64,000 bases of DNA. Source: Lysobacter sp. K5869 (lineage in GTDB: Bacteria > Pseudomonadota > Gammaproteobacteria > Xanthomonadales > Xanthomonadaceae). Below, one piece after another: positions 48,349-55,798 of this stretch. The stretch covers positions 5,681,001-5,745,000 of the forward strand of contig NZ_CP072597.1 of the NCBI RefSeq assembly GCF_018847975.1. Direction: 5' to 3'. Every line of letters begins with the position of its first letter. The first letter of the stretch is position 1. The translations under genes were made by a program, and so were the position numbers. A model generated the notes under the pieces. The model was not told the origin of the DNA, did not search any database, and saw nothing but the letters and a program-made list of their open reading frames with translations.

Positions 48349-50931
48349 TTACTTCGCCGCCTTCGTCCCCTGCCCCGCCTCGGGCTTGGCGTTCTTGACG
48401 TAAGTCTCCAGCCAGCGGTTGGTCTCCGCCAGCATGTGCAGAATCGATTCGCGCGCGCGATAGCCGTGGCTTTCGTTCGGCAGCATCACCAGCCGCGCCT
48501 TGCCGCCCAGGCCCTTGATCGCCGCGTACATGCGCTCGCTCTGGATCGGGAAAGTGCCGGAGTTGTTGTCCTGCTCGCCGTGGATCAACAGCAGCGGGTC
48601 CTTGATCTTGTCGGCGAAGTTGAACGGCGACATCGCCTCGTAAGTCGGCTGCGCCTGCCAGTAATTGCGCTCCTCGGCCTGGAAACCGAACGGGGTCAAG
48701 GTGCGGTTGTAGGCGCCGCTGCGGGCGATGCCGGCCTTGAACAAGCGCGTGTGCGCGAGCAGGTTCGCGGTCATGAAGGCGCCGTAGGAATGGCCGCTGA
48801 TCGCGATGCGGTTGCGGTCGGCGACGCCGCGCCGCACCACTTCGTCCACCGCCGCCTGCGCGCTGGCGGTGAGTTGGGCGATGTAGGTGTCGTTGGGCTC
48901 GCGCTCGCCTTCGCCGACGATCGGCATGGTCGGGTTGTCGAGCACCGCGTAGCCCATCGCCAGATACGGCAGCGGCCCCCAATAGCTGACCGCGTTGAAC
49001 TCGTACGGCGAGCCGATCACCTGGCTGGCCGCGTCCGCGCTCTTGAACTCGGCCGGATAGGCGTACATCAGCATCGGCAGCGGGCCGTCGCGCTTGGCGT
49101 CGTAGCCCGGCGGCAGATACAGGTTGGCGGTGAGCTCGACGCCGTCGTTGCGCTTGTAGCGGATCAGTTCCTTCTTGATGTCGCGCAACTGCGGCGTGGG
49201 ATGCGGGAAGTGGGTCAGCGCCACCGGCGCGGCGTCGCCGCCGAGTTCGCGCCGCTGCAGGTTCGCCGGTTCCGTCGGCGATTCGCGCATCGTCAGCGCG
49301 CGCGTGGCCGCATCGTCGAGCACCGCCAGCGGCCGCTCGAAGTACGGCGCCTGCGATTGGAACAAGCGGGTGCGGCGCTTGTCGCTCAGATCCAGGCGGT
49401 CGAGGAACGGACGCTCGCCTTCGGCGGACGCGCCTTCGCCGATGTAGTACAGGCTGTTGCCGTCGGCGCTGGTGAGCAGGCGCTCGCCGCCGCCGGCGTC
49501 CATCACCGTCACCGGCTGGCCCGGATCGTTGTAGCGGTCTTCGCTGCTGCCGTCGCGCAGCAGTTCCGGCGCGCGGTCGCCGTGATCGGGCGCGATCCGC
49601 CACTGGCGGATCTTGCGGGTCTTCCACCAGAACTCGTCGATCAGCGCCAGCTCGCCGCTGCCCCAATGCGCGCCCTCGAAGCGCGCGCCGAGCCGCGCCA
49701 GCGTCTGCGGCGGCTTGTCGAACGGCGCGGCCTGCATGAACACCGCGTCGCGGATCTCGACCGCGCGCGCCGGGTCGCCGCCGTCCTGCGCCTCGGCCCA
49801 CACCAGCGTGGCCGGCGCGTCGCCGCGCCACTGCACCTCGCGCGGGCCGGTCGGCACCGCGTCGTTGCCGGTCGGCAGGCCGTCCACCAGCGGCAGGCGC
49901 GCGATTTCGTATTCGAAGCGGCCGTTGCCGTCGAGCACTTCGACCCGGCGCGCGAACATGTCGGCCGGCACCAGATACGAGAACGGCCGCTCCAGGCGCG
50001 TGGTCAGCACATGGCGGCCGTCGGGCGAGACCGAGGCGCGCATGAACAAGTCCGGCGCGCCGAGCTTGGTCGTTTGCCCGGCCAGATCCACGCTCGCCAA
50101 TTGCGAACGCAGGTAATAGGCGAACAGGCGCGCATCGCTCTCGTTGCGCAGCAGATCCTGATAGGTGCGCACTTGCCGCACGCCGCCGCCGGACTGGCTT
50201 TCCTGCGTGGCCGGGCCGCTCGGCGCGGCGGCCGCGGCCGGCGCTTCGCCCTGATCGTCGGGCTGCAGGCGCACCAGCAGACGGCGGCTGTCGGGCATCC
50301 ATTCGTAGCCGCGGCCGGCGACGGTGTTGAGGCCGGAGACGAGCTTGCGCGCGCGCCGGGTTTCCAGTTCCACCAGCCACAGCTCGTTGGCGCCGCTGGC
50401 GGCGTCGACGCGGTTGAACGCGAGCCAGCGCTGATCGGGCGACCATTGCAGCGTCGCCAGCGACAGCGGCGACGGCAAACCCTCGATCGGCACGGTCTTG
50501 CCGCTGGCGATCTCCAGCAGTTCCAAACCGCTGCCGAAACTGAAACGGCTGGCCGCGCGCACGCGCGGATGGATGCGCATGCCGGCGAGCTTGAGCTCGG
50601 GTTGCGCGACCACCTCGATGCCCGGCAGCGACGGCGTGCGCACCATCGACACCAGATCGCGATGCGGGCTGATCGACAGCTGCGGCGGACGCGGCGCATC
50701 GACGATGGCTTGCAGCGGCTTGGGCGGCAGTTGATAGCCCTCGCCCCACGCGCTCGCGGCGGCCGGCGCGGCGGCGGCGGTTTTGCCGGCCTTGGCCGCC
50801 GGCGCGGCCTGCGCCGACAGACACAGCGCCAGCGCCGCCGGCAGCAACAGCCGCGCGATCGACGCCGGCGAACGGCGGCCGCGGGGCGGCGTGGAAAGGC
50901 GGCGGGCGAAGCGGCGCGCGGGCGAATTCAT
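48349..50931 (-). CDS. Exported prolyl-oligopeptidase family peptidase (S9)
   Basis: 860 aa. An Arg-rich N-terminus is followed by a hydrophobic signal segment ([15 protein letters not shown]). A long N-terminal beta-propeller (~90-590; blades such as [54 protein letters not shown]) precedes the alpha/beta-hydrolase catalytic domain. The nucleophile elbow is [18 protein letters not shown]; the Asp lies in [15 protein letters not shown] and the His in [13 protein letters not shown]. It is similar to S9 glutamyl/dipeptidyl peptidases exported to the periplasm. It probably degrades oligopeptides released by the secreted endoproteases. Confidence 0.93.
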
Positions 50932-52736: not shown

Positions 52737-52762
52737 TCGGTTCGCCTTCGGGCGCTATCGAC

Positions 52763-52800
52763 GCAACGAAATCGGGCGCCTTGGGCGCCCGATTTCGTTG
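52763..52800. terminator. Terminator-like hairpin after ahcY
   Basis: CAACGAAATCGGGCGCC (52763-52779) is perfectly complementary to GGCGCCCGATTTCGTTG (52784-52800), a 17-bp stem with a TTGG-type loop. The stem top carries A/T-rich ends rather than a free U-tract, so it may work on both strands between ahcY and the small minus-strand gene. Confidence 0.7.
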
Positions 52801-52848
52801 CGGCCGTCGATCGGGGAGCCGGCGTCGGCCGCGCCCCCGCGGCGCGCA

Positions 52849-53019
52849 TCAGGGCCGCTTGCCGCGCCTGCGCGCATACAAGGCCCCGGCGAGCGGCGCG
52901 TACACCGCCAACAGCCACATCAACGACGTAAGCTCGAAAGCCACGACGATCAGCGCAAGCGTCACGCCGATCCCGCCAGCGACCGCGAGGACGAGCGTAT
53001 CGGTGAATGCGGTTTTCAT
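52849..53019 (-). CDS. Small two-helix membrane protein (56 aa)
   Basis: 56 aa, not recognised. ATG at 53019 is preceded by GAGGAA at good spacing on the minus strand. Two hydrophobic segments are visible: LVLAVAGGIGVTLALIVVAF (~9-28) and LMWLLAVYAPLAGALYA (~33-49), ending in a positively charged tail RRRGKRP, which by the positive-inside rule faces the cytoplasm. It lies between the ahcY terminator and the regulatory region of the peptide/YcaO locus. Codon use is less GC-biased than its neighbours. Function unknown. Confidence 0.65.
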   Translation of the reverse strand: MKTAFTDTLVLAVAGGIGVTLALIVVAFELTSLMWLLAVYAPLAGALYARRRGKRP

Positions 53020-53180
53020 GCGATCCGTTCCTCGCTCCAGACGGCGCCGACGCTGGGTCTTGTCTACTACGGCGCCGGCCGCTCCCGCAACTCACGCCGC
53101 CCGGACTCGGTTGCGTCGCGTCTCCCATAGGCCGCGCGCCGCCTCCGTCGGTCGCCTCGTCCCCCGGCCGACGGGCCGTT

Positions 53181-53196
53181 TGTGATCCCGATCACT
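53181..53196. promoter_or_regulatory. CRP/Clp-type operator upstream of the peptide gene
   Basis: TGTGATCCCGATCACT: TGTGA-N6-TCACT, a near-perfect match to the CRP consensus TGTGA-N6-TCACA. The xanthomonad homologue Clp binds the same sequence and activates extracellular enzyme and secondary-metabolite genes. It lies 131 bp before the 58-aa peptide gene and about 160 bp upstream of the divergent small membrane protein, so either or both could be targets. Confidence 0.7.
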
Positions 53197-53327
53197 GACC
53201 GCTCAGCGCCGCCGCCCGAGCCTGGACCCGCAGCCGCCGGCTGCGGCACAAGGACGAACCGCAGGCCCGGCGCCATCGCGTCCGGCGTAACGTCCTTGGG
53301 CCTCCTTCGAACCACAGGAGTCGCATC

Positions 53328-53504
53328 ATGGGCAACGAGCGTCCCGCAGTGATCAAGACCGTGCTTCAGAAAGGATCGGCCATTCCGGCCAGCGAAGCCC
53401 TGCGCGCCAACAGCGCCTCGGCCGCCGAGTTCAAGGCCGCGATGGTCGAACTCAACGCCCCGACGGCGCAGGAACAGTCCTTCCTCGACGAGTTCGCCAA
53501 GTAA
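53328..53504 (+). CDS. 58-aa peptide, candidate YcaO substrate
   Basis: 58 residues, not recognised as any known precursor family. ATG is preceded by ACAGGAG with a 7-base spacer, a strong ribosome-binding site. The sequence is Ala-rich (13 Ala), with three Asn and seven Ser/Thr, but no Cys, Trp or Tyr. The N-terminal part is short and basic (MGNERPAVIKTVLQK), the middle is SEALRANSASAAEFKAAM, and the end is an acidic helix-like SFLDEFAK. The YcaO gene starts 76 bp downstream on the same strand. Its role as a modification substrate is inferred from position, size and the CRP-type operator only. It is shorter than the usual 60-aa ORF cut-off. Confidence 0.7.
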   Translation: MGNERPAVIKTVLQKGSAIPASEALRANSASAAEFKAAMVELNAPTAQEQSFLDEFAK

Positions 53505-53580
53505 GCGGCCCGCGCCGCCGGCGCGTGGCGCGCGTTCGCGCGCGCCACGCGTTCGCCGTCCACGCATCGGAGCAGCGACG

Positions 53581-54855
53581 ATGATTCCGTACGAACGCGA
53601 GCGCAGCCTCGACGACGCCGACCGCATCCTGCGCGAATGCATCGCGCGCCGCGGCTGGTGCGTCGACACCGACCGCTTGGGCGAGGGCTTGGTCACGGCC
53701 AAATGCTTCCTGCTCGACGCCGACGGCCAGGTGCTGAGCTTCGGCGGCGGCAAGGGCGAGGCGGACGCGGCCTATACCGGCGCGCTGTACGAAGCGGTCG
53801 AACACTATTACTGCAAGGCCTCGGCGCTGCCGCAGCGGTGGGATTATCCGAGCGCGCGCGCGATCGCCGAGGACCCGCGCTACGCCGCGCTGCCGTTCCT
53901 GTCGTGCTTCGCCGAACAAGCCGAGCGGCGCCTGGCGTGTCGCGATTACATCGCGTATTCGGGCGACGAAACCCTGCCCGTGCCGCTGTTCCTGACCTTT
54001 CCCGATTACCCGGGCGGCGCCCGCGCCGCCGACCCGCGCGACGAGTTCGACTACGCCAGCGCCATGCGCTTCGGCTCCAACAGCGGCACCGCGATCGGCG
54101 CCAGCTTCGAGGAAGCGGCGCTGCACGGCATCGGCGAGATCCTCGAACGCGACGCATGGTCGTTGTTCCTGATCGCGCACTACCTCGGCGGCGAGCGCGC
54201 GTACGGACGCTGGATCGAACCGTCCTCGCTGCCCGACGACCTCGCGCGCATCCACCGCATCGCCGAACGGCGCATCGGCGGCCCGATCCGCCTGATCGAC
54301 ATGACCACCGATCTGGCCTACCCGGCGTTCATCGCCGTCGCCGAACAGCGGCTGGAAGACGAAGTCGTGTTCTCGCACGGCTGCGGCGCCTCGCCGTATC
54401 CGCGCCACGCCGCCCTGCGCGCCTTGAGCGAACTGGTGCAATGCGTGGACATCAAGCAAGACACCGAGCACCTCGCCGGCCTGGACCGGCTCGCGCTGGA
54501 GCTGCTGGCCGGCTACCCGCGCCTGCGCGATTGCGCGATGGGCGAGATCGATCCGCGCCGCCTGCATCGCGGCCCCTGGGACTACGCCGAGCCCGAGCGA
54601 ATGACGCCGCAGCGGCTGCTGCCGGCGGTCGTCGCCGGCTTACGCGAACGGGGGCTCGACTTGTACTACGCGGTCAACCATCGCGAGGGCGACGATTTCT
54701 GCGTGGTCAGCAGTCTGTCGCCGGAGCTGGAGCGGTTTTTCCTGGTCTCCACCGGCGTGGTGATGGCGCCGGGGCGGCGTGGGAGCGAGTTCCTGCGCAA
54801 GCACCGTGCGGCTGCCGCGCGGACGGATGAGCCGGAATTGCGCGTCGAAGCCTGA
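53581..54855 (+). CDS. Stand-alone YcaO-domain protein
   Basis: 424 aa. The ATP-binding YcaO fold is evident from GGGKGEADAAYTGALYEAVEHYY (~56-78, with E71 and E74) and GSNSGTAIGASFEEAALHGIGEILERDAW (~165-193, with E178, E186, E189, R190). Later blocks include HGCGASPYPRHAALRALSELVQ. YcaO enzymes activate backbone amides with ATP to make azolines, thioamides, amidines or related changes. There is no C-terminal PxPxP motif of azoline-forming cyclodehydratases and no fused or adjacent ThiF/ocin-ThiF, TfuA or dehydrogenase gene. A GGAGCAGCG Shine-Dalgarno precedes the ATG. The upstream 58-aa peptide is the obvious candidate substrate. Confidence 0.9.
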   Translation: MIPYERERSLDDADRILRECIARRGWCVDTDRLGEGLVTAKCFLLDADGQVLSFGGGKGEADAAYTGALYEAVEHYYCKASALPQRWDYPSARAIAEDPRYAALPFLSCFAEQAERRLACRDYIAYSGDETLPVPLFLTFPDYPGGARAADPRDEFDYASAMRFGSNSGTAIGASFEEAALHGIGEILERDAWSLFLIAHYLGGERAYGRWIEPSSLPDDLARIHRIAERRIGGPIRLIDMTTDLAYPAFIAVAEQRLEDEVVFSHGCGASPYPRHAALRALSELVQCVDIKQDTEHLAGLDRLALELLAGYPRLRDCAMGEIDPRRLHRGPWDYAEPERMTPQRLLPAVVAGLRERGLDLYYAVNHREGDDFCVVSSLSPELERFFLVSTGVVMAPGRRGSEFLRKHRAAAARTDEPELRVEA

Positions 54856-55063
54856 AGCGACGCCTCATCGGATCTTCGCCCGACCGCGCCGGCTCGCCGA
54901 CGGCGACGCCGCGCCCGCGCAGCGGTGGGTGCGGCCTCGCGCGGTACGGACCAGCGATAACCGATCCCGCCGCGGCCCGCGCCAATCGCAGCCGGTGGCG
55001 GCTCGGAACGTCATCGACAAAACGGCAGCGGCCGGCGTCGTCGGGCGCTCCCGCACACCCGCC

Positions 55064-55798
55064 CTACAACGACAAGCGCTCGCGCAACTCCCGCGACTGC
55101 CGCCGCGACACCTCGATCCGGCTGCCGTCCTTGAGCTCCAGTTCGTAGCCGTCGCCCACGGCCAGTTCCACCGATTTCACCGAGCGCAGGTTCACCAGGG
55201 TGTTGCGGTTGGCGCGGAAGAACAGCGACGGGTCCAGCCGCGCCTCCAGCGCGCTCAGGCTGCGCGCGAGCAGCGCGCATTCGTTGCGGAACCAGACCCG
55301 CGCGTAGTTGCCGTCGACGACGATGCGGTGGACTTCGCGCAAGGCCACGAACCAGCAACGCTCGCCGTCGCGCAGGAACACCTGGTCGTCGGCGCCGAGC
55401 GGGCCGCGCGCTTCGGCCGGCGAGGTCTCGCTGGGCAGGCGCGCGCGGGCGCGCTGCAGCGCCGCGTTCAAGCGCTCGGGTTCGACCGGCTTGACCAGAT
55501 AATCCAGCGCGTTGGCCTCGAAGGCCTGCACCGCGTATTGGTCGTAGGCGGTGGTGAACACCACCAGCGGCGCGACTTCCAGCCCGGCGATCACGTCGAA
55601 GCCGCTGCCCGAGGGCATCTGGATGTCGAGCAGGACCAGATCCGGACGCAGCCGCGCGATCGCTTCTTGCGCCTGCGGCACGTCCTCGGCCTCGCCGAGG
55701 ATGTCGACCTGCGGCGATCGCGCCAGCAAGGTGCGCAGTTCCAGCCGCGCCAACCGGGTGTCGTCGACGATCAGCACGCTCAGCGGACGCAGGCTCAT
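55064..55798 (-). CDS. LytTR-family response regulator
   Basis: 244 aa. Receiver domain (~5-120): LIVDDTRLARLELRTLL, phosphoacceptor D58 in LVLLDIQMPSGSGFDVI, FTTAYDQYAVQAFEANALDYLVKPVE. The LytTR DNA-binding domain (~140-240) includes DQVFLRDGERCWFVALREVHRI, FFRANRNTLVNLRSV and IEVSRRQSRELRERL. Start ATG overlaps the stop of the upstream kinase gene by 4 bp, so the pair is co-translated. This class often controls exported enzymes, cell-wall metabolism or alginate-like polymers. Convergent with the YcaO gene; a regulatory link to it is possible but not shown. Confidence 0.95.
   Translation of the reverse strand: MSLRPLSVLIVDDTRLARLELRTLLARSPQVDILGEAEDVPQAQEAIARLRPDLVLLDIQMPSGSGFDVIAGLEVAPLVVFTTAYDQYAVQAFEANALDYLVKPVEPERLNAALQRARARLPSETSPAEARGPLGADDQVFLRDGERCWFVALREVHRIVVDGNYARVWFRNECALLARSLSALEARLDPSLFFRANRNTLVNLRSVKSVELAVGDGYELELKDGSRIEVSRRQSRELRERLSL

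Follow-up and report, generated by a model that had tools for sequence, protein, structure and literature searches.

Can a small peptide gene and a single YcaO gene, standing side by side with no recognizable partner, constitute a RiPP-type system (RiPP: ribosomally synthesized and post-translationally modified peptide)? This question is raised by a locus in the window, i.e. the whole stretch of 64,000 nucleotides (nt) of Lysobacter sp. K5869 DNA analyzed in this work (contig NZ_CP072597.1, positions 5,681,001 to 5,745,000), where the gene of a peptide of 58 amino acids (aa), P0001, precedes that of a stand-alone YcaO protein, P0002. A first-pass annotation had marked the region from position 53181 onwards, i.e. 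from 147 nt 5' of the peptide start, and proposed that the peptide is the substrate of the enzyme. Its basic description, a Cys-free 58-aa peptide gene with a ribosome-binding site 76 nt before YcaO, was confirmed from the sequence: the YcaO gene starts 76 nt after the peptide stop, and the full translation of P0001, MGNERPAVIKTVLQKGSAIPASEALRANSASAAEFKAAMVELNAPTAQEQSFLDEFAK, lacks Cys. Features beyond that description are a second copy in the genome, a C-terminal peptide motif, a near-invariant Met-Gly start outside the peptides that begin with MKK, an intercistronic hairpin and an insertion on which the pair sits. We regard the locus as a probable two-gene RiPP-type pair, in which the peptide would be the YcaO substrate and would carry a C-terminal follower. 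The pair comprises the following elements, all on the plus strand.

53316..53320, plus strand: AGGAG, ribosome-binding site of the peptide gene as judged from the sequence, seven nt 5' of the ATG
53328..53504, plus strand: P0001, 58-aa peptide gene with an ATG start, the proposed precursor with a proposed N-terminal core and a proposed C-terminal follower
53460..53501, plus strand: conserved C-terminal stretch of the peptide, PTAQEQSFLDEFAK, proposed follower or recognition helix
53569..53572, plus strand: GGAG, from the sequence the likely ribosome-binding site for YcaO
53581..54855, plus strand: P0002, stand-alone YcaO of 424 aa, an open reading frame (ORF) matching PF02624

The peptide ORF is a real gene under purifying selection. 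In the window's own group (four loci, six comparisons) the nonsynonymous divergence of the peptide (dN) is 0.023-0.075 and the synonymous divergence (dS) 0.196-0.335, and dN is lower than dS in 25 of 26 peptide comparisons from seven groups, the remaining pair being identical and some of the groups with few changes being weakly informative in this respect. Differences at codon positions 1, 2 and 3 number 72, 27 and 138, respectively, over 1175 codon comparisons that leave out the loci L015, L016 and L018. At the DNA level, the members of the window's group are 89-94% identical in the peptide gene and 85-92% in YcaO, as compared to 64-76% in the intergenic segment and 60-81% in the upstream 280 nt. 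A sigma-70-like promoter was not found by consensus in 52737-55070. The possibility of a chance ORF or a chance pairing is ruled out by this selection together with the co-occurrence and the motif counts described below.

The peptide gene and the YcaO gene are co-conserved. A genus sample of 20 genomes includes 11 with a P0002-type YcaO, at 23 loci (a single genome having as many as three diverged copies), and in 23/23 loci a small ORF with an ATG start and a Shine-Dalgarno-like site is found 70-161 nt upstream of YcaO. Searched over the same 20 genomes, a peptide profile yields 24 matches with E <1e-10, all of them adjoining YcaO (the 23 loci plus a tandem peptide in L014, where two different peptides encoded at 925-1059 and 1280-1414 precede a single YcaO); the informative part of this result is the lack of orphan peptides, as the profile was built from the same sequences. 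In the nine genomes devoid of the YcaO there are just three weak matches (E ~0.012), inside an unrelated 865-aa frame. Thus, the co-occurrence of peptide homologues with this YcaO, which the first-pass annotation had suggested as a check, was observed. Its proposal that the peptide is the substrate is strengthened by the conserved pairing in the genus and in all 18 distant loci described below, and we consider it very probable, the modification itself being predicted from sequences.

A pattern-based scan of named genomes recovered 26 loci, of which 8 are in Lysobacter, 3 in Stenotrophomonas, 11 in Pseudomonas and 4 in Yersinia, and all 18 loci outside Lysobacter (YcaO identity 30-35%) exhibit a related small ORF 44-220 nt 5' of YcaO. 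In larger samples, the YcaO is present in 6 of 198 genomes drawn from the family (five of these six in the genus) and in 2 of 274 drawn from the class; a broader profile run on 369 class genomes detects it in 4, among them that of the window and two weak cases (G386, G494). In a plasmid collection with 159 matching records, six of which were opened, a peptide starting with MG precedes YcaO in five loci (Nonomuraea, Streptomyces, Pantoea and two from Vibrio), while the sixth, from Rhizobium (L087), is a YcaO-TfuA locus with a different peptide. Downstream of the Streptomyces plasmid pair (L083, 7569-10758) there is a gene whose annotation is SagB family peptide dehydrogenase. A search for phage carriage of the pair gave no match, and the Yersinia pair has no nucleotide match in E. 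coli. What is seen is a small gene of a putative precursor co-conserved with a putative modifying enzyme, one of the marks of a RiPP pathway. We recognized no description of the peptide-YcaO pair in the open-licence literature searched; the consulted portion of a study on Lysobacter gummosus (PMC10745450) describes a YcaO-family gene up 2.5-fold and three L. capsici orthologues without mentioning the peptide.

The anatomy of the peptide family was assessed in a set of 47 sequences, composed of the 23 genus peptides, the one tandem peptide, 18 distant and five plasmid peptides. The motif [TSN]xxExxxL is found within the last 24 residues of 44 of them, as compared to 2.2 expected from shuffling, the motif having been derived from the very peptides scored. 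Among 21 aligned Lysobacter peptides, T46, E49, L53, A57 and K58 are invariant, and the peptides of the 23 genus loci are 45, 46, 58 or 59 aa long and all end with AK. Eight equal-length Pseudomonas peptides possess a conserved N-terminal block MGYxxSWNANK (some positions in only 6 or 7 of the eight), a variable middle and a conserved C-terminal block ExLQL[ST]ExExAEL; the Stenotrophomonas peptide has only 30 aa. Gly is the second residue of 32 of the 47 peptides and Lys that of the other 15, which all come from Lysobacter and start with MKK. When the Pseudomonas, Yersinia and Stenotrophomonas peptides were used as protein queries, 81 proteins were returned, of which 74 begin with MG and 5 contain an internal MG, and an MGP start occurs in no peptide of either the 47-peptide set or this search. 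The lack of Cys, which the first-pass annotation used to exclude thiazoline chemistry, holds for the window's peptide and is not a family rule, as 7/47 peptides contain Cys. As regards a conserved core, which the same annotation suggested to look for by alignment, the shared element turned out to be the C-terminal motif, whereas the N-terminus is variable, though mostly Met-Gly. This layout is that of a putative core plus a recognition part, with the recognition part at the C-terminus, and we consider it likely that the C-terminus is recognized by the enzyme and the N-terminus is modified. None of the 12 peptides scanned against NCBIfam (P0001, P0003 and ten further) reaches the cut-off of any family. 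In the sources the peptides bear no informative names, being entered as 'hypothetical' or 'uncharacterised' or without any name, and the jgi names of two of them, P0018 and P0143, are apparently mislabels.

P0002 can be assigned to the YcaO superfamily on the basis of its match to the PF02624 hidden Markov model (HMM), which scores 113.3 bits against a cut-off of 25.7 and is the only Pfam domain found, and of the predicted ATP/Mg-binding residues. E71, E74, E178, E186, E189, R190, R280, E284 and Q287 are conserved in 46/46 rows of the clade, from which the distant relative in G266 (L027/L089) was kept out, and align with E75, E78, E191, E199, E202, R203, R286, E290 and Q293 of E. coli YcaO, which we take to be its ATP/Mg residues. 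No PxPxP was found in the last 30 residues of any of 48 YcaO rows. Hence both the intact ATP-binding residues and the missing C-terminal PxPxP noted in the first-pass annotation hold throughout these alignments. With respect to known subfamilies, P0002 scores 61.9 bits with TIGR03604 (below 219.25) and 52.6 bits with TIGR03266, the model of YcaOs thioamidating methyl-coenzyme M reductase (MCR; below the equivalog cut-off of 365), and its closest solved folds are archaeal YcaOs. Three proteins compared to the PADLOC defence profiles gave zero matches at E<=0.01.

The genome of the strain (5.97 Mb, one contig) contains two YcaO genes over the Pfam cut-off. The second, more than 2 Mb away and 51% identical to P0002, is likewise preceded by a small ORF, of 45 aa, Cys-free and with the C-terminal end PTPEEKAILELLAK; just 5' of this paralogous pair (L002 129-851, G000) a protein with peptidoglycan-binding and X-Tfes XVIPCD domains, according to Pfam, is encoded. 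The best TfuA match in the genome (PF07812) has 15 bits, below the cut-off of 30, and the best match to the cyclodehydratase C-protein model TIGR03882 has 25.4 bits (E 4.7e-5), below 36.9; sub-cut-off matches to the latter occur also in 11 of 14 control genomes, none of which exceeds the cut-off, hence this model has no positive control. The claim that no partner lies nearby can thus be extended to the whole genome for TfuA and the C-protein at their cut-offs, while the dehydrogenase was judged from the neighbours of the locus. The eight neighbours were assigned by Pfam to an S9 peptidase, AdoHcyase, a 56-aa ORF without a match, a LytTR regulator, a histidine kinase, an alpha/beta hydrolase, GNAT and methylenetetrahydrofolate reductase, and among these eight no member of the amidohydrolase, radical SAM, P450 or M17 peptidase families was found. 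The S9-family peptidase gene (48352-50931) is located on the far side of ahcY and not within the insertion delimited below, at ~2.4 kb from the peptide, and does not accompany the pair in the relatives checked. An azoline-forming YcaO of the linear azol(in)e-containing peptide, cyanobactin or SagD type was considered and disfavoured, with no PxPxP, no E1-like protein or C-protein over the cut-off and the low TIGR03604 score of P0002, as was a TfuA-type thioamide RiPP, with no TfuA partner over the cut-off in the genome. In Pseudomonas, a class I methyltransferase follows YcaO in 7/11 loci and an alpha/beta hydrolase in 8/11, counts obtained with a crude gene caller and clustering and with Pfam run on one member of the methyltransferase cluster and two of the hydrolase cluster; this suggests further tailoring in these loci. 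The Yersinia pair in L038, placed between an AcrB-type efflux gene and genes for tetratricopeptide-repeat, ArsC and M20-peptidase proteins, has no such methyltransferase or hydrolase extra.

Several known YcaO systems resemble the pair in part. The pair is similar to bottromycin (BtmD/BtmF) in that an N-terminal core would follow Met-Gly, a follower would be C-terminal and the YcaO has no E1 partner over the cut-off, a likeness of layout from which processing and binding here are extrapolated. In bottromycin, the Val4-Val5 amide is believed to be attacked by the amine of Gly1, the Met has to be removed beforehand, MGP is a poor substrate of the host aminopeptidase, and the follower seems to be required (PMC5103208, PMC7136475). 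Unlike in bottromycin, there is no MGP here, no second YcaO in the cluster and no tailoring families among the eight neighbours. The bottromycin precursor model NF033414 (accession as quoted in PMC8442711) gave no match at E<=10 with 12 peptides, its presence in the release used being unchecked. Streptamidine (AmiA/AmiD) shares the stand-alone YcaO, the short precursor without Ser/Thr/Cys-rich regions and, as would be the case here, the amidine made from an N-terminal amine. However, streptamidine depends on the predicted E1-like AmiB, the hydrolase AmiC, the dehydrogenase AmiE and a set of transporter genes, and the C-terminus of AmiD is rich in Pro (PMC8442711), none of which was seen here; AmiB itself is described there as escaping domain searches. 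YcaO-TfuA loci such as Rhizobium L087 also have a short peptide gene directly 5' of YcaO, but in L087 TfuA adjoins YcaO and the peptide is dissimilar, whereas the Lysobacter genome has no TfuA over the cut-off. Finally, YcaOs that modify proteins (E. coli uL16, archaeal MCR) are stand-alone as well, and the archaeal ones supply the closest solved folds. The grouping with these enzymes, seen in the first-pass annotation as the alternative to a peptide substrate, did not emerge: P0002 is far below the TIGR03266 cut-off, has 424 aa versus 586 in the E. coli form, shows PF02624 only, while the uL16 enzyme has an extra tetratricopeptide domain (PMC13063428), and is paired with a small peptide gene. 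The locus thus appears to be a known kind, the YcaO RiPP-type pair, reduced to two genes and with a proposed C-terminal follower.

Between the two genes there is a potential RNA structure.

53520..53553, plus strand: hairpin with a 15-pair stem (G-U allowed) and a TTCG loop; 2 of 100 shuffled sequences reach such a stem

In 34/41 loci the stem runs over 9 or more pairs without interruption (mean 11.5 versus 6.7 in dinucleotide shuffles), and in 24/41 the folding z is <= -2, the window scoring -1.54; many of these loci are closely related, so the counts are not independent, and for L049 from Pseudomonas the folding test used a later start than the stem test. Because the hairpin lies between the genes, the peptide would be made in excess of the enzyme. 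The YcaO would then bind the conserved C-terminal helix of the peptide as a follower and spend ATP on activating a backbone amide of the variable N-terminal core; the host methionine aminopeptidase would take off the Met and expose the Gly amine, which could attack the activated amide to form an N-terminal amidine, as in bottromycin. By analogy with that system, we tentatively put the N-terminal amidine forward as the likeliest chemistry for the Met-Gly peptides, at a confidence short of even. Two genes may be enough, because, with the MKK peptides set aside, Gly2 hardly varies and MGP is lacking, so that the host methionine aminopeptidase alone should suffice.

Two alternatives retain the same pair and differ from the amidine in chemistry only. 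It is rather unlikely, yet conceivable, that the YcaO forms a backbone thioamide using cell sulfide, free of TfuA; this reaction does without an N-terminal amine, agrees with the archaeal-like fold and could also apply to the MKK peptides, but it leaves the near-invariant Gly2 unexplained, and the thioamide RiPPs described in PMC8120280 and PMC9576775 use TfuA, which is not found over the cut-off here. Ser/Thr azolines, ATP-dependent peptide cleavage or an amidine made from free ammonia, which taken together we regard as unlikely, are all reported outcomes of YcaO activity (for the peptidase and the ammonia-derived amidine see the title of PDB 7u58 and PMC12338566), and the window's peptide does have Ser and Thr. 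The azoline, which the first-pass annotation had found conceivable, is nevertheless unlikely as the common product because Ser, Thr and Cys are absent from residues 1-21 of the L050 peptide and 1-15 of four Yersinia peptides, to which the lack of PxPxP and of a C-protein may be added; an azoline further along the chain could still occur. These objections bear on azolines and not on the cleavage or the ammonia-derived amidine. On the whole, azolines fit less well than an N-terminal amidine or a thioamide.

The remaining alternatives deny that the peptide is modified. It might be a small regulatory or chaperone subunit of a YcaO acting on another protein, in agreement with its helical character and fixed C-terminal motif and with the existence of YcaOs that act on whole proteins (PMC13063428); we consider this improbable in the light of the 30-aa Stenotrophomonas peptide, the strongly variable N-terminus, the tandem different peptides serving one YcaO, the presence of as many as three diverged copies in one genome, and a hairpin that would lower the enzyme relative to the peptide. 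The same hairpin, strong and situated between both ORFs in most loci, could suggest that the peptide is a regulatory leader ORF and that the hairpin attenuates YcaO expression. Selection at the amino-acid level, the peptide's own Shine-Dalgarno site and the conserved C-terminal motif render this explanation very improbable; moreover, the hairpin lies outside the ORF and no single regulatory codon run was seen by eye.

In favouring the precursor-enzyme pair, one has to take account of several observations that weigh against it, beginning with the weakly informative dN/dS of some peptide groups. In six loci (L036, L041, L046, L053, L082 and L084) two or more small ORFs have a Shine-Dalgarno-like site, and the family-like one was chosen. 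The class relative in G266 (L027/L089, 26% identity) has no recognizable peptide directly 5', and its N-terminal frame is apparently interrupted. The stem of 9 uninterrupted pairs is absent in 7 of the 41 loci (L012, L022, L023, L025, L035, L040 and L050). MG is wholly missing from 2 of the 81 peptides found by protein search, and the N-terminal amidine leaves the MKK peptides unexplained. In the YcaO tree the two outgroups are on very long branches, which leaves the position of the clade in the superfamily and the unity of the three MKK clades unsettled, and the comparison with bottromycin was made by layout and description. A complex of peptide and YcaO, suggested in the first-pass annotation, was modelled with AlphaFold for L004, whose YcaO is 82% identical to the window's, as a fusion through the natural intergenic frame. 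The predicted enzyme is confident and the C-terminal half of the peptide is helical, with a predicted local distance difference test score (pLDDT) of 71-83, although the alignment for this model was weakened by several MKK peptides misplaced by MAFFT. P0001 alone yields the same C-terminal helices with pLDDT 78-81, and the 20 N-terminal residues score 28-35 when linked (the linker is also low) and 61-63 alone. Because the helices score alike in both cases, AlphaFold offers no evidence for docking, which it neither supports nor excludes.

It is tempting to extend the scheme to a two-gene RiPP class spanning Lysobacter, Stenotrophomonas, Pseudomonas, Yersinia, Vibrio, Pantoea and some actinomycetes: after exposure of Gly2 by the aminopeptidase, the follower would guide YcaO and an N-terminal amidine would result with no dedicated protease or partner, the MKK peptides representing a second chemistry with another amine; as a whole, this proposal is speculative and rather doubtful. 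Even so, the pair offers a very small portable precursor-enzyme combination as a model for partner-free amide activation by YcaO, and, owing to the near-invariant Met-Gly start, the hypothesis of an N-terminal amine can be put to a direct test. As the peptides have no informative names in the sources, the natural-product family has probably been overlooked. A survey of stand-alone YcaOs covered Actinobacteria and six Firmicutes (PMC8442711), and an older survey of all prokaryotes describes stand-alone clusters as little known (PMC4603692).

As for the surroundings, conservation is limited to the pair, which moves independently of the genes around it. In the window it lies between ahcY and the LytTR regulator gene.

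~52801..55061, strand not assigned: insertion from ahcY to the LytTR regulator gene; homology with the relatives' sites ends and resumes about there
52849..53019, minus strand: 56-aa hydrophobic ORF within the insertion, without a Pfam match and found only in L003 among 19 loci

From the break in homology at ~52800 to ~55061 it follows that a stretch of ~2.3 kb either brought the pair in or was lost together with it. In L028, the closest relative with 10 kb flanks (YcaO 82% and peptide 91% identical), 0/7 of the neighbour and insert proteins used as queries are present. A larger cluster in the window was likewise rejected: the seven queries have no match in the other 18 Lysobacter loci, save a distant regulator/kinase pair near L045, in a test of 19 loci of which 8 have 10 kb flanks and 11 have 1.5 kb, and in which the alpha/beta hydrolase, located outside the insertion, was no query. 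Outside this comparison, the distant YcaO relative in L027 (1516-2846) is flanked, as seen by eye, by two similar histidine-kinase-like genes.

An orthologue of the LytTR regulator is present in 7/20 genomes, one of them the window's own. In L094, L097 and L098 it adjoins ahcY with a gap of ~0.08-0.25 kb and the pair is absent; in L099 the gap is ~0.8 kb, without a match to the peptide or YcaO; and in L096 a different ORF is found between the two genes. In L095, no ahcY lies within 1.5 kb, and the gene found in its place is a frame that looks RHS-type by eye. Five of these genomes (G003, G004, G006, G011 and G017) hold the broader type of the window's pair elsewhere. This junction of ahcY with the regulator gene resembles a hot spot.
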